Assembly (NCBI GenBank): GCA_024636405.1
Contig: JAGXHC010000047.1
Span: 1-13,122 of the forward strand
DNA length: 13,122 bases
Source of the DNA: Sulfitobacter sp.
Lineage (GTDB): Bacteria > Pseudomonadota > Alphaproteobacteria > Rhodobacterales > Rhodobacteraceae
Reading direction: 5' to 3'
The notes beneath the pieces are model-generated. The model was not told the origin of the DNA. It was given only the letters and a program-made list of their open reading frames with translations, and made no database searches. Within the stretch, counting starts at the first letter, position 1, and every line of letters begins with the position of its first letter. The translations under genes and the position numbers were made by a program. Shown piece by piece: positions 1,320 through 13,064 of this stretch.

Positions 1320-2105
1320 ATGGCAATTCTAGAAGTGGTGCGGCGCGGCGCGGTTGCGGAACTGACACTGAACAATCCCGAGCGGTTGAATGCGTTGTCG
1401 GACGCCATGCTGGAAAGTTTGCAAACTACCCTGGACGACTTTGCAAATGATCTGCAAACCCGCGTCATCGTTCTGTCTGGCAAGGGAAAGGCATTTTGTG
1501 CCGGTCATGATTTGCGCGAAATGACTGCCAGCCGACAAGCCGAAGATGGCGGTGCGGCGGCGTTCAAAGACCTGTTTGACCGTTGTGCGCGGGTGATGGA
1601 ACGCATCCGCACCTTGCCCCAGCCAGTGATTGCCCAGGTACACGGCATCGCCACTGCTGCGGGATGTCAATTGGTTGCGACATGCGATCTGGCCGTGGCG
1701 GCGCAGGACACGCGATTTGGGGTGAATGGAGTCAATATCGGGCTTTTCTGCTCCACCCCGATGGTCGCGCTGAGCCGAAACATAGCACGCAAACAGGCGT
1801 TTGAGATGCTTACCACGGGTGAGTTCATCGATGCGGATCGTGCGGTTCAGCTGGGGCTGATCAACCGCGCCGTGCCAAAAGCCGCGCTGGCCAATGAGAC
1901 CGCGACACTTGCGGACAGGATCGCCAGCAAACTGGGCCTGGCCGTCCGCATCGGGAAACGCGCATTTTATGAACAACTGGAAATGCCGGTGGCGGGGGCC
2001 TATGTATTTACCGGTGATGTCATGGTCCGCAATATGCTGGAGCCCGACACCGCCGAAGGTATTGATGCTTTCCTGAACAAGCGCGATCCTGACTGGACGC
2101 AGTGA
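1320..2105 (+). CDS. Crotonase-fold protein, ECHDC3-like (enoyl-CoA hydratase/isomerase family)
   Basis: A 261-residue member of the enoyl-CoA hydratase/isomerase superfamily. Seen: LTLNNPERLNALSDAM near residues 15-30, the CoA and oxyanion-hole motif FCAGHDLREM (59-68), and the second oxyanion segment GIATAAGCQLVATCDLA (109-125). The two glutamates that add water in rat mitochondrial hydratase (E144, E164) align by eye with Q117 and G137 (FGVNGVNIGLFCS), so ordinary hydratase activity is doubtful. The NIGLFCSTP stretch recalls the ECHDC3 subfamily, whose reaction is not settled. GGAGG lies 6 nt before the ATG. The divergent thioesterase suggests acyl-CoA handling. The fold is certain; the reaction is unknown. 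Confidence 0.85.
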   Translation: MAILEVVRRGAVAELTLNNPERLNALSDAMLESLQTTLDDFANDLQTRVIVLSGKGKAFCAGHDLREMTASRQAEDGGAAAFKDLFDRCARVMERIRTLPQPVIAQVHGIATAAGCQLVATCDLAVAAQDTRFGVNGVNIGLFCSTPMVALSRNIARKQAFEMLTTGEFIDADRAVQLGLINRAVPKAALANETATLADRIASKLGLAVRIGKRAFYEQLEMPVAGAYVFTGDVMVRNMLEPDTAEGIDAFLNKRDPDWTQ

Positions 2106-3758: not shown

Positions 3759-4373
3759 ATGAGCGATCGGTTTCTCGACAAGGTTTACGGTGCCCGTGGC
3801 ACCACAGCGACCCGCGCGCTCTATGACGCTTGGTCAACCAGCTATGATGCGGAACTGGAAGAACAGGGTTATGTCACACCGGCCCGCTGTTCGGCAGCGC
3901 TGGCGCGGTATCTGCCGGACAAAGAATTGCCCATCCTTGATTTTGGTTGTGGTACAGGCTTGTCCGGACTGGCGCTGAAACGAGCCGGATTTCAAACCAT
4001 TGACGGCGTGGATCTGTCGGCTGACATGCTGGAACAGGCCCGCGCGAAAATGATCTACCGTGAACAGTGGATGGTCACGCCCACCAAGCCGTTGCCGCCT
4101 GATACGAATATCTATGCAGCAATCTCCGCAATTGGCGTTTTGGGTGCCGGTGCCGCCCCCATATCGACATTCGATACGCTGATGAAGGGGCTTCGGCGTG
4201 GCGGTTTGCTGGTGTTTTCATTGAACGATCATGCCTTGCAGGACCGCACGAACGAGGCGCGGGTCAATGAATGGCTCGACTGTGGCGCAGCCACCCTGCT
4301 GCTGCGGGAATATGGCGATCATCTACCGGGAATCGGGTTGAAGTCCAACGTCTACGTCCTTGAAAAAAAGTGA
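3759..4373 (+). CDS. Class I SAM-dependent methyltransferase, METTL27/WBSCR27-like
   Basis: A 204-residue cytoplasmic enzyme with a single Rossmann-type methyltransferase domain. Seen: an N-terminal YDAWSTSYDAELEEQGYVTP segment (22-41), which resembles the Williams-Beuren candidate 27 (METTL27) family; motif I ILDFGCGTG (59-67) for SAM binding; and the acidic motif II in GVDLSADMLEQA (83-94). No extra RNA-binding domain is present, so the substrate may be a small molecule, a protein or RNA. It sits between trmFO, 39 bases upstream, and gluQ, whose GTG start overlaps its TGA stop. This tight coupling to tRNA-modification genes is suggestive, not proof, of a related role. Family assignment beyond class I methyltransferase is by resemblance only. 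Confidence 0.85.
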   Translation: MSDRFLDKVYGARGTTATRALYDAWSTSYDAELEEQGYVTPARCSAALARYLPDKELPILDFGCGTGLSGLALKRAGFQTIDGVDLSADMLEQARAKMIYREQWMVTPTKPLPPDTNIYAAISAIGVLGAGAAPISTFDTLMKGLRRGGLLVFSLNDHALQDRTNEARVNEWLDCGAATLLLREYGDHLPGIGLKSNVYVLEKK

Positions 4374-5217: not shown

Positions 5218-5244
5218 GCCTTACCTGATCTATTCAGGCAAGGC
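5218..5244. terminator. Stem-loop between convergent genes, possible bidirectional terminator
   Basis: GCCTT-A-CCTGA (5218-5228) pairs with TCAGG-C-AAGGC (5234-5244): ten base pairs around one A-C mismatch, with a 5-nt loop. It starts 2 bases after the gluQ stop and covers the last codons and stop of the convergent gene. Neither strand has a T-run after it, so it may block RNA decay or act with Rho rather than as a classic terminator. Confidence 0.45.
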
Positions 5245-5994
5245 CCGCCACGGTTTGGGCATCAACACCCAGCGACCGTTCACATGGATCAAACCGTCAA
5301 AGGCATAGCCCGATAATTCACCATCTTTGACGAATTTGAACAGAACGATGGGCACATCCGCGATAAAGTACTGTAAGACATCCCTGTAACCGCCCGGAAA
5401 TTCACGAAGTATTGGCTTTCGATCCACCAATTCGCGGGTGGTTGCATAATAGACAAGCAGCGCATCCTGATGCCGCTTCGGGCCAAAGGCCGCGTCCGAG
5501 GTCATCTGATCGCGGTAGGCATTGATCAAGGCGGTGGCAAGCGGTTCCGCGTAAACCGCACGGATGTCCGCATCGGTGGGAAAAAGCGCCTGAGTAAGGC
5601 TGCGGAGATCCGCGTCGGGCTGCATAAATGCAGCGAGTCGGCTGCGCACCTCCGCCTCGCTGCCCGGCGTCAGGCTCTGCTCAGGCTCAGGCTCGGGCTG
5701 ATCGGGCGCAACAAGCGCGATCAGGCTCTTGTCTGGATCAGTGGCGCAGGCGCGCGCAATATTGTCCAGCAATACTGCGTTATTCGCATCATCTACTGAT
5801 CTGATATCGCTTGTATTTGCCGCCAAAAACCCAAAGGTCCACGCGGCAATCATGGTTCTGTGACTGGTCTGAGTATTGGCAAGAATGTCACCACACCGCG
5901 TGCGCGGGTCAAAGCCGACAGATTGCGAAGACGCAAGTTGCGGCACGGTGCAGCTGATGAATAGGGCTGTTGCATGGGTCAGAAATTGGGTCAT
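5230..5994 (-). CDS. Secreted protein with HdeA-like N-terminal region, function unknown
   Basis: A 254-residue protein not recognised as a named family member. The N-terminus is a plausible Sec signal peptide (hydrophobic from about residue 4 to 20, cleavage near LASSQ, 20-24), so it is probably periplasmic. Residues 30-100 show the HdeA/HdeB-like spacing: a Cys in TRCGDIL (C34), AAWTFGFLAA (50-59), and a second Cys in ARACATDPDKSLIAL (C83), which could form a disulphide. A Pro/Glu linker (99-106) leads to a C-terminal alpha/beta region of about 140 residues ending in VNGRWVLMPKPWRALPE, which I do not recognise. Start 5994 has GAGGA 7 nt upstream; an upstream in-frame ATG at 6057 lacks one. 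HisI lies upstream on the same strand. The HdeA link is a pattern match only. Confidence 0.8.
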   Translation of the reverse strand: MTQFLTHATALFISCTVPQLASSQSVGFDPRTRCGDILANTQTSHRTMIAAWTFGFLAANTSDIRSVDDANNAVLLDNIARACATDPDKSLIALVAPDQPEPEPEQSLTPGSEAEVRSRLAAFMQPDADLRSLTQALFPTDADIRAVYAEPLATALINAYRDQMTSDAAFGPKRHQDALLVYYATTRELVDRKPILREFPGGYRDVLQYFIADVPIVLFKFVKDGELSGYAFDGLIHVNGRWVLMPKPWRALPE

Positions 5995-6020
5995 GAAATA
6001 TGTCCTCGAAAAAGCGGGTC

Positions 6021-6057
6021 GCCTGTTCAGGCTAGCGCAGCTTTCGCAACTTGGCAA
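6021..6057 (-). promoter_or_regulatory. Candidate promoter with overlapping palindrome before the HdeA-like gene
   Basis: On the minus strand TTGCCA (6052-6057) and TAGCCT (6029-6034) are 17 bases apart. A perfect 12-base palindrome GCCTGTTCAGGC (6021-6032) covers the end of the -10 and the predicted transcript start near 6022, so it could be an operator. The elements are moderate matches, and the gene could also be read from hisI 75 bases upstream. Confidence 0.3.
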
Positions 6058-6429: not shown

Positions 6430-6456
6430 CGTTGAGTGCCTTTCGGGGAAAAGTTT

Positions 6457-6484
6457 TTGCATCTGTCGGTGCGTGTCTTATGTA
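6457..6484 (+). promoter_or_regulatory. Candidate promoter of the scaffold-like gene and chemoreceptor gene
   Basis: TTGCAT (6457-6462) and TATGTA (6479-6484) are 16 bases apart, predicting a start near 6491 and a 20-nt leader that includes the AAGGA Shine-Dalgarno. TATGTA read on the other strand is TACATA, so the same bases could serve as a -10 for hisI, but no convincing minus-strand -35 is seen. Confidence 0.4.
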
Positions 6485-6510
6485 GGCACACAGGACAAGA
6501 AGGAACACGC

Positions 6511-6975
6511 ATGTCGGCGGAAACTGATCTGATCAAGCTTTATTCGGCGCGGATTCTGGCGCTGGCGGCGGATATTCCGCATCTGGGCCGTCTGGAGACG
6601 CCAGATGCCAGTGTCAGCCGCCGCTCGCCGCTGTGTGGATCAAGTGTGACGGTGGATGTCATACTGCACGACGGCGCGCTTGCTGAGCTTGGTCAGGACG
6701 TCAAGGCCTGCGCGCTGGGACAGGCGGCGGCGGCCATTACCGGTGCTGCGGCGCCGGGTCTGAAACTGGCCAAGATCGAGACTGCCCGCGACCAGTTGCG
6801 CGCAATGCTCAAGGCGCAGGGACCAGTGCCGGATGCGCCTTTTGACGGGTTCGAGGTGCTGCTGCCAGCGGTTGCCTATAAGAACCGCCACGCCTCCATT
6901 ATGCTGAGCCTTGAGGCGTTGAGCGACGCCATGAGGACCGCAAGCGCCGATGGGGCGGATATTAGCGAATTGTAA
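6511..6975 (+). CDS. IscU/NifU-like iron-sulfur scaffold protein, degenerate
   Basis: A 154-residue cytoplasmic protein with the outline of the IscU/SufU/NifU N-terminal scaffold fold. Seen: SPLCGSSVTVDVILHDGALAEL (39-60), matching the first cluster-ligand loop (C42), and DVKACALGQAAAAITGAAAPG (63-83), matching the second (C67). In true scaffolds a CGD motif supplies an Asp and a third Cys lies near the C-terminus; here CGD is CGS (S44) and the expected third Cys position in KNRHASIMLSLEAL (125-138) is Ala or Ser. Cluster assembly by the classical mechanism is therefore doubtful. AAGGA lies 8 nt before the ATG at 6511. No isc or suf gene is nearby; a chemoreceptor follows after 49 bases. The fold call is moderate and the function unknown. 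Confidence 0.75.
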   Translation: MSAETDLIKLYSARILALAADIPHLGRLETPDASVSRRSPLCGSSVTVDVILHDGALAELGQDVKACALGQAAAAITGAAAPGLKLAKIETARDQLRAMLKAQGPVPDAPFDGFEVLLPAVAYKNRHASIMLSLEALSDAMRTASADGADISEL

Positions 6976-7024
6976 GGCTATTGCTGTCACAGCTTCAGGG
7001 TCTGACAAGGATCCGAAAACGTTA

Positions 7025-8419
7025 ATGACCCTCCATTCAGTAGTAGTTGCAAAACCCGAACAGATGGCACGCCTTGGCAAGGCGGCGGCGGCGTTGGGGT
7101 ATGAGATTGTTGATATCGCCGGTTTTCTCGACCTGGTCGAATCGCATGCGGTGAATCAGCGTACAGCGCTGACCGCCTTGGGCGAAAGCGCTGGTGAAAT
7201 GGCCTCGGCGAACGAAGATGTCCAGGCGCTTGTCCGGGATCTGAGCGTGACATCGGCGACCGCCATGAAAAACGTACAATCTTCGGTCGCGTTGGTACGC
7301 AAGGTGGGCGACAAGACCCGAGACGTCGCCGGATGGGTTCAGCACCTTTCCGACCGCACGTGCACGATCACCGACACGCTGCGGGCGGTAAAGGCAAATA
7401 ATTCGCAGATTGCCGCCATTGCGATGCAGGTCAATACGCTGGCGATCAATGCCAAGATTGAAGCCGCGCGCGCCGGGGATGCAGGGCGCGGATTTGCCGT
7501 GGTGGCGGATGCCATCAACGATCTGTCGCAGAAAACCGGCACCGCGGCAAAGCAGATATCCGAGAATATAGAACGGTTGAACAACTGGATAACCGACCTG
7601 GGCCAGGAGGCCGAAGGCGTTGCCGAGAACGCAACCGAAGTGCTGAGCCAGTCGGAGGAAACAGATGCAGCACTTGGCGCAATGGAAACGACCATCAAGG
7701 CGGAATACGATCAGGCGCAACAGATTGCGGCGCAGACCGAACGTGCCAACAAGGCAATGTCGCGGTTGCGCCCTTCGGTGAAACAGATTGATGCCACGGT
7801 GCGCGAAACATCCGCCGGAATCGAACGTACGCATGCACGGATGTTCAAGCTAATCGATCTTTCAGAAATGATTGTCCAATGTGTCGGCAGTCTGGGCGCA
7901 GAATCGCACGATGCCCGGTTTGTCGCTTTCATGCAGAAAACCGGGCAGGCCGTGTCCGAGATGCTGGACACATCGCTTGATGTCGGCGCGATCAGCATGG
8001 CGCGGTTATTTGACCGGCGCTACATCCCCGTTTCACATACTGATCCGCCCCAGGTCACAACCCAGGCGACGGTGTTTCTTGATGATGTGCTGCCACCGTT
8101 TCAAGAACCGGCATTGGATTTCGATCCTTGCGTGGTTTTCTGTGCAGCGGTGGACACGAATGGGTATTTGCCGACGCATAACCACAAGTTCTCAAAGCCC
8201 CAAACCAACGATGTTGTCTGGAACACTGCGCATTCGCGCAACCGGCGCATGTTCAACGACCGGGTCGGGCTGAAAGCCGGTCGCAGTCAGGCCCCCTTTT
8301 TGCTGCAGGTTTACCGCAGGGACATGGGTGGTGGCGATTTCAGGGTGATGAAGGACCTGTCCGTGCCGATCCGGGTAAAGGGTCTGCACTGGGGTGCCCT
8401 GCGTATGGGTTACACCTAA
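7025..8419 (+). CDS. Soluble methyl-accepting chemotaxis protein with C-terminal Cache-like sensor
   Basis: A 464-residue chemoreceptor-type signal transducer. No transmembrane segment or HAMP domain is visible, so it should be cytoplasmic. Residues about 60-290 are helical, and the signalling hairpin tip is clear at IAMQVNTLAINAKIEAARAG (132-151) followed by DAGRGFAVVADAI (152-164), the part that contacts CheA and CheW. The C-terminal region (about 298-464) contains VVFCAAVDTNGYLPTHN (370-386) and ends DLSVPIRVKGLHWGALRMGY, resembling Cache/PDC-like sensor domains placed after the signalling domain. No CheR/CheB docking pentapeptide is seen. The start at 7025 is a best guess: AGGA lies 13 nt upstream, rather far. 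It follows the scaffold-like gene by 49 bases and may be co-transcribed. The ligand is unknown. Confidence 0.88.
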   Translation: MTLHSVVVAKPEQMARLGKAAAALGYEIVDIAGFLDLVESHAVNQRTALTALGESAGEMASANEDVQALVRDLSVTSATAMKNVQSSVALVRKVGDKTRDVAGWVQHLSDRTCTITDTLRAVKANNSQIAAIAMQVNTLAINAKIEAARAGDAGRGFAVVADAINDLSQKTGTAAKQISENIERLNNWITDLGQEAEGVAENATEVLSQSEETDAALGAMETTIKAEYDQAQQIAAQTERANKAMSRLRPSVKQIDATVRETSAGIERTHARMFKLIDLSEMIVQCVGSLGAESHDARFVAFMQKTGQAVSEMLDTSLDVGAISMARLFDRRYIPVSHTDPPQVTTQATVFLDDVLPPFQEPALDFDPCVVFCAAVDTNGYLPTHNHKFSKPQTNDVVWNTAHSRNRRMFNDRVGLKAGRSQAPFLLQVYRRDMGGGDFRVMKDLSVPIRVKGLHWGALRMGYT

Positions 8420-8596: not shown

Positions 8597-8725
8597 TCAA
8601 ACAAAAACAGGCAGATGCAATCCAACAAACAACATGACCACAAGAGCCGCCGCACCGATCGCGTCATGCAGCAGCGTCGCTTCGGACCGCTTCATTATCG
8701 TTCTGATCGTGGTGAGTGTCGTCAT
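8597..8725 (-). CDS. Small single-pass membrane protein, probably LexA-regulated
   Basis: A 42-residue open frame with a strong Shine-Dalgarno, GGGGAGG 5 nt before the ATG. The product starts MTTLTTIRTIMKRSEATLLH and continues as one hydrophobic segment from about residue 21 to 42 (DAIGAAALVVMLFVGLHLPV, then FV). The positive N-terminal part (R8, K12, R13) predicts an N-in single-pass inner-membrane protein. An alternative ATG at codon 11 has no Shine-Dalgarno. A GTTC-N7-GTTC box lies 55 bases upstream and an intrinsic terminator downstream, so it appears to be an independent SOS-type unit after recG. I do not recognise the family. By size, topology and control it resembles SOS-induced division inhibitors such as Caulobacter SidA (29 residues); this is analogy, not homology. 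Toxin or phage-like roles are alternatives. Confidence 0.75.
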   Translation of the reverse strand: MTTLTTIRTIMKRSEATLLHDAIGAAALVVMLFVGLHLPVFV

Positions 8726-8780
8726 TGTAGCCTCCCCTTTTTGTTGCTCCTTTGTTCTCACTTTCTTAAGGTCTTGTAAA

Positions 8781-8795
8781 GAACTTTATGAGAAC
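8781..8795 (-). promoter_or_regulatory. LexA (SOS) box of alphaproteobacterial type
   Basis: The minus strand reads GTTC-TCATAAA-GTTC, an exact match to the GTTC-N7-GTTC direct repeat bound by LexA in alphaproteobacteria such as Rhodobacter sphaeroides. It sits in an AT-rich gap, 55 bases upstream of the small membrane-protein gene and 28 bases past the recG stop. No other exact copy was noticed in the intergenic regions. The -35 and -10 of the promoter are not clear. Confidence 0.7.

Positions 8796-8823: not shown

Positions 8824-13064
<4,241 letters not shown>

Follow-up and report, generated by a model that had tools for sequence, protein, structure and literature searches.

The window analyzed here, a stretch of 13,122 nucleotides from a Sulfitobacter sp., carries recG (8824-10914, with its stop at 8824) and, as the next gene upstream, ligA (10911-13055) on the minus strand, as well as an MCP-like signalling gene on the plus strand (6950-8419), all three recognized through Pfam. 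Downstream of recG, on the minus strand and convergent with the signalling gene, lies a compact element. It begins with a GTTC-N7-GTTC box, GTTCTCATAAAGTTC, at 8795-8781, assigned as a LexA-type operator from the window sequence and its conservation in relatives, and a degenerate third half-site, GTAC, is found 10 bases upstream of the box (8805-8802). The box is directly abutted by TTTACA (8780-8775), a likely -35 element, and followed by a second conserved block with the pattern GAAC-N7-CAAC, GAACAAAGGAGCAAC, at 8757-8743, which is probably part of the promoter. A Shine-Dalgarno sequence, GGGGAGG (8737-8731), stands five bases before the ATG of a 42-codon gene that extends from 8725 to the TGA ending at 8597, stop included, and whose predicted product, MTTLTTIRTIMKRSEATLLHDAIGAAALVVMLFVGLHLPVFV, should be a single-span membrane protein. 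The stop codon is followed by a structured RNA core (8595-8457) with a closing stem, a multiloop of three hairpins and CUGCC/CUGUCC-type loop words, and then by an intrinsic terminator, the hairpin GCGCCGCC with T8 (8456-8418), so that about 180 bases lie between the stop codon and the end of the T8 run. This terminator comes from RNA folding, while a simple terminator scanner reported none at the element. Elsewhere in the window, the frames 6436-6975 (plus) and 5230-6057 (minus) have no Pfam match at E <= 0.001.

To our surveys of related genomes, a protein similarity search contributed three proteins besides the query's own, and a translated scan of a genome collection yielded 71 loci that were found by protein similarity and not by the box; their titles include Sulfitobacter, Tateyamaria, Roseobacter, Phaeobacter, Tritonibacter, Rhodovulum, Frigidibacter and others. 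Box, frame and upstream recG occur together in all 71 loci, recG being on the same strand in each of them and ligA present in 70, and the placement directly after ligA-recG in a Roseobacter-type genome, which an earlier note on this DNA had pointed out, is supported. The distance from the end of the recG match to the frame is 93 to 180 bases in 70 loci and 639 bases in the remaining one (L063). An MCP-like relative was found downstream in only 26 of the 71 loci, which indicates that the convergent neighbour changes whereas recG is constant. A viral locus (L072) with a partial match, neither box nor recG, was dropped, as were 12 plasmid matches at E values of 7 to 9, nine of them annotated as nifK; a protein search in phages gave no match.

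A survey that avoids picking close relatives was carried out with a 41-row alignment (A5) as the query against 149 genomes of a relative's family, which, judging from the locus titles, is the Rhodobacteraceae. Matches at E <= 0.01 were obtained in 127 of the 149 genomes, with a single copy in 126 of these, as fits a core gene. The counts that follow refer to 120 of the 128 places matched, leaving out G001 (its locus already included as L020), G105, G024, G031, G080, G050, G033 and the second place of G049; the 120 include three loci (L094, L095 and L097) that already belong to the 71-locus set and were kept in the counts of box and recG. The box is present at 115 of the 120 family loci, recG at 115 and both at 110, and the exact box is absent from five.

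Twenty of the profile-negative genomes of the family were listed (two more were not), and recG was detectable in 15 of these. By eye, nine of the 15 (L223, L224, L226, L227, L229, L230, L233, L234 and L237) show a box, a small and diverged hydrophobic frame, or both after recG; five show neither a box nor a fitting frame there, and L236 is ambiguous. In G059, which is among these five, the whole element, box and diverged frame included, is found on another contig than the recG match (L214, about 1500-1830), with no recG reading frame within the 180 bases before it, which means that the element can leave recG. A pattern search matched all three positive controls as well as G026 and G059 without mismatch; when three mismatches were allowed, matches appeared in six genomes, which is comparable to the reversed control with its 3 matches in 2 genomes. 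In Paracoccus denitrificans, a box array and a 31-residue frame follow recG (L238, after position 3815). Class-wide, the protein profile matched four of 289 genomes at E <= 0.001, including two that had been found before. At the search sensitivity used, the sequence comparisons mark the element as a trait of this family. As a side observation, recG and the 31-residue version of P. denitrificans are located on a 1.73 Mb replicon labelled as a plasmid, together with two overlapping boxes.

The evidence that the frame is translated comes from its pattern of substitution, determined for the 68 of 72 frames that were usable (the others contained ambiguous bases or fewer than 39 codons). Over 143 frame pairs, pS was 0.48 and pN 0.09, with a median dN/dS of 0.11 (141 of the 143 pairs computable), and in 29 non-overlapping pairs pN/pS was 0.19, while the two other reading frames gave pN/pS values of 1.3 and 3.6. 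Substitutions at codon positions 1, 2 and 3 numbered 789, 328 and 2154. These counts show purifying selection on the frame and hence that it codes for a protein. The earlier note had proposed the 42-codon frame, with its Shine-Dalgarno sequence and terminator, and a check for conservation under synonymous-biased change; the frame is indeed kept in relatives in just this way, and we regard it as a real gene with near certainty.

The best 19-residue hydrophobic segment comprises residues 23-41 with a mean Kyte-Doolittle value of 2.31, and the hydrophobic C-terminal segment seen earlier is thus borne out. Invariant in 41 sequences are D21, G24, V30, M31, L36 and P39, and AlphaFold modelled residues 3-41 as a single helix (pLDDT 82, pTM 0.40). 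The most hydrophobic 18 residues are uncharged in 104 of 120 proteins and carry one charge in 16, a result that the picking of that very stretch favours; a charged residue after the hydrophobic stretch occurs in none of the 120. The 22 residues that precede the hydrophobic segment have an average net charge of only +0.08, which argues but weakly for an N-in topology. According to these predictions the product is a small single-span protein of the kind to which SidA-type inhibitors belong, and it very probably resides in the inner membrane.

We next consider the promoter. The motif GTTC-N7-GTTC, which we take to be the LexA operator of alphaproteobacteria, occurs three times in the window against 0.43 expected. 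The exact matches at 1359-1373 (minus), inside listed frames, and at 10045-10059 (plus), inside recG, were taken as chance. Over the whole genome of one relative, 149 matches were counted compared with 125 for the reversed pattern; the bare pattern is thus near chance level genome-wide, and the box is informative only by its position. The 115 family boxes all lie no more than 220 nt ahead of the frame matched, whereas the motif was found in 10 of 6000 shuffled upstream stretches, in 2 of 477 windows inside recG, and within 200 bases after recG at none of 30 loci of a class-wide sample (30 of the 54 genomes with recG examined, in part by eye). Control patterns in the 120 family stretches occurred in 0 (spacing 5), 1 (spacing 8), 4 (spacing 9), 0 (reversed letters) and 11 (reverse complement). 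A spacing of 6 was matched in 95 of the 120 stretches because a third GTTC sits 10 bases upstream; this half-site, GTAC in the window, reads GTTC in 92 of the 115 loci with a box.

Directly after the box, TT[TG]AC is found in 95 of these 115 loci; further downstream, 98 loci have GAACA starting at +38 and 101 have GAAC-N7-(C/G)AAC. As the distance is fixed although the middle varies, the pattern suggests a -35 element beside the operator together with either a second operator or a -10/start region, and the block at 8757-8743 may be a second, imperfect operator in inverted orientation, a -10/start region, or both. The same kind of box stands upstream of lexA and recA in all three relatives inspected, which agrees with the earlier identification of the repeat as the LexA-type site of alphaproteobacteria, and the sections of PMC6473078 drawn on here are in line with it. 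With the operator conserved at the promoter in 71 of 71 and 115 of 120 related loci, as the earlier note had proposed to check, LexA control of the element is well supported by position and conservation, and we consider it highly probable.

The sequence after the stop codon proved to be a further conserved part of the element which, like the second promoter block, the earlier note did not contain. For the 3' stretch in the window the folding energy is -76.2 kcal/mol (z -4.6) and for that of L046, whose sequence is quite different, -74.0 kcal/mol (z -5.7), and the two share one shape made up of a closing stem, three hairpins and the terminator. On a plain alignment of 30 sequences, RNAalifold recovered only the closing stem and the terminator (18 pairs, 8 with double changes); the hairpins were missed because their lengths differ, and covariance models were used instead. 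Even in this plain MAFFT alignment the closing stem covaries, with 12 and 11 double changes at two pairs.

At E <= 1, a first covariance model, R1, built from 8 sequences, recognized 66 of 73 sources, always in the slot that follows the frame; 8 of the 66 were its own training sequences. It also found 42 of 100 family loci at E <= 0.01. A second model, R2, was run on 100 of the 120 family loci, without L094, L095 and L097, the only loci with a frame sequence common to both sets, and matched 66 of the 100 at E <= 0.05 in the same slot. In the R1 set 90.1% of the cells pair, 32 of 34 pairs are changed on both sides and the covariation score is 0.431 (0.169 shuffled, at most 0.086 slid), and in the R2 set 33 of 34 pairs are doubly changed with a score of 0.441 (0.139 shuffled, at most 0.068 slid), the alignments being fitted to the structure so that the pair counts are inflated and the controls flatter the structure. 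In eight whole genomes, the best covariance-model match fell in the slot after the frame in every case, and in each of three genomes a single additional weak match appeared (E 0.19 to 0.83).

Folding energies and sequence words were determined for 106 of the 120 family regions, 14 without a clear terminator having been left out. Compared with shuffled sequences, the energies are only mildly low (median z -1.38; 39 of 106 below -2), while CTGCC occurs 2.59 times per RNA against 0.75 in shuffled sequences and CTGTCC 1.45 times against 0.14. The letters of CTGCCT and TGTCCC are unpaired in 76% and 75% of cases, respectively, compared with 43% overall. At all five loci folded as whole transcripts, the domain, judged by eye, retained its shape. 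In divergent members the RNA is much shorter and the frame is kept. No Rfam family matched the window, L020 or L051 at the curated cut-off. The sRNA Atu_C7 (RF02501) reached 26.5 bits with the window RNA against a cut-off of 45, which was taken as chance; it was ruled out because the aligned pairs lie mainly in the terminator and because none of 12 relatives matched at E <= 1 in a larger, more strictly filtered search. By its covariation, the region that separates the stop codon from the terminator forms a conserved RNA structure. An independent role for this RNA, over and above termination and stability, is conceivable, and we lean somewhat against it.

The arrangement suggests a LexA-repressed one-gene SOS operon that encodes a SidA-like, septation-delaying membrane protein together with an RNA domain, a reading to which we give an even chance. 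LexA bound to the GTTC array beside the -35 element would repress the promoter, and its cleavage upon DNA damage would release a transcript of about 340 nt, from about 8760 to the terminator at 8418. The 42-residue protein made from it would begin with a short helix and continue into one hydrophobic helix, with a conserved Asp at the edge of the membrane, and would insert in the inner membrane, presumably with its N-terminus inside. Most likely, it would then act as an SOS membrane effector that touches a membrane protein of the divisome and delays septation, as SidA does, and the RNA domain would most likely stabilise the message or act in trans through its C-rich loops. The function as a division brake is drawn from analogy, no sequence feature pointing specifically to the divisome, and its probability falls slightly short of even. 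A wider version, in which a two-function SOS transcript found throughout the family of Rhodobacteraceae-type bacteria joins a new family of membrane checkpoint microproteins to an RNA acting in trans, appears to us rather doubtful; during DNA damage, such an RNA would target mRNAs or an RNA-binding protein via the repeated C-rich loops.

The main rival reading is an SOS-induced inner-membrane peptide of the TisB/DinQ type, which would depolarise the membrane and slow the cell while its translation is held by RNA structure or an antisense RNA. Such a peptide would share the size class, the SOS-type promoter and the structured transcript, and the DinQ transcript of about 330 nt has two LexA operators according to the part of PMC3567139 consulted. 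In five whole transcripts folded, the Shine-Dalgarno sequence was indeed mostly paired, with a mean unpaired probability of 0.16 to 0.50. However, over 70 loci it was about as exposed as with the rest of the transcript shuffled (0.29 vs 0.34), and its pairing with its own 3' RNA (-22.7 kcal/mol) was no better than with that of other loci (-23.3) or with shuffled RNA (-24.9), and thus gave no signal. Because the locus is single and near-universal, selection on the frame is strong and these folds reveal no special hiding of the ribosome-binding site, we rate this peptide below the division brake and consider it unlikely; the mostly uncharged hydrophobic stretch, read with the reservation made above, likewise speaks against it. 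The RNA might instead be the main product, a regulatory RNA of the SOS response whose repeated C-rich loops would base-pair with mRNAs or sequester an RNA-binding protein, with the small protein as an accessory. Covariation in two separate sets of loci, the enriched and mostly unpaired loop words and the fold kept in whole transcripts are what such an RNA would display, but the clear protein-level selection on the frame, and the divergent members that keep it with much shorter RNAs, make this quite improbable.

Since recG lies upstream at nearly all family loci (115 of 120) and an in-silico study predicted recG itself to be under LexA in some alphaproteobacteria (PMC3323433, in the sections consulted), the product could also be a membrane-bound helper of repair or fork handling tied to RecG, with no brake on division. 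Yet the element has its own promoter and terminator, so that synteny with recG need not mean a shared function, and in G059 it stands on another contig than the recG match; we hold little by this possibility. A chance frame next to a chance box in a GC-rich intergenic stretch would accord with the near-chance frequency of the bare box genome-wide, but we practically discount it, as box and frame are conserved together with substitutions biased towards synonymous ones, and as the box occurs at its position far more often than in the shuffled, recG-internal and class-wide controls.

Beyond SidA and DidA of Caulobacter, we know of no damage-induced small division inhibitors in alphaproteobacteria. 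SidA of Caulobacter crescentus is a 29-residue inner-membrane SOS protein that binds FtsW and stops division (PMC4211646, in the excerpts used here, as for all the sources named below). By description, it resembles the present protein as a tiny inner-membrane protein under LexA in an alphaproteobacterium; it differs in length (29 residues vs 42), in that it works through FtsW and binds FtsN to some extent, and in that those excerpts mention no structured RNA on the sidA message. DinQ of E. coli, a 27-residue single-span peptide controlled by LexA (PMC3567139), and TisB (PMC11997105) are likewise SOS-controlled small membrane peptides, but they are type I toxins countered by small RNAs. YneA of B. 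subtilis and SosA of S. aureus, by description SOS-induced division inhibitors as well (PMC13396833, PMC6851548), belong to Gram-positive hosts. The excerpts of PMC6473078, PMC4211646, PMC4414408, PMC4809877, PMC5107571, PMC3323433, PMC3567139 and PMC11997105 do not describe the element; supplementary tables fall outside this scope and may list it (LexA sites of D. shibae in PMC6473078, 167 sRNAs in PMC5107571). The element offers a near-universal candidate SOS division inhibitor at one locus in a large bacterial group with laboratory models, and it combines an SOS microprotein with a covarying RNA structure on one predicted message. Microprotein and folded RNA may help the cell to pause during DNA repair, and as the two can be broken separately, their roles can be told apart.

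The protein matches no Pfam or NCBIfam family at the curated cut-off in 41 members scanned. In Pfam, 2 members gave matches with a best E of 0.028, and in NCBIfam 4 of the 41 did so with a best E of 0.0063. The direct comparison with a cut-off covers the first scanned member, which has no Pfam match and 12.7 bits with HrpD6 against a cut-off of 100, and no relative was found in the PDB up to E 10. A profile search returned 1524 protein clusters at E <= 0.001 among 7977 candidates scored, and the descriptive names among the 120 clusters listed are 'hypothetical protein' or 'uncharacterized protein'. The protein is thus already annotated, without a function, and the earlier expectation that gene finders could easily miss it was too strong. 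Some database versions are longer than 42 residues, up to 67 among those listed. Comparison of one of them, the 66-residue P0003, with translated relatives shows a reading that runs through the box and the promoter block, and the sequences suggest that this longer form probably has a wrong start. In many relatives, the promoter region (8743-8795 on the minus strand and its counterparts) contains in-frame ATGs (ATGTTC..., ATGAGAAC...), and P0003 appears to start at such a codon.
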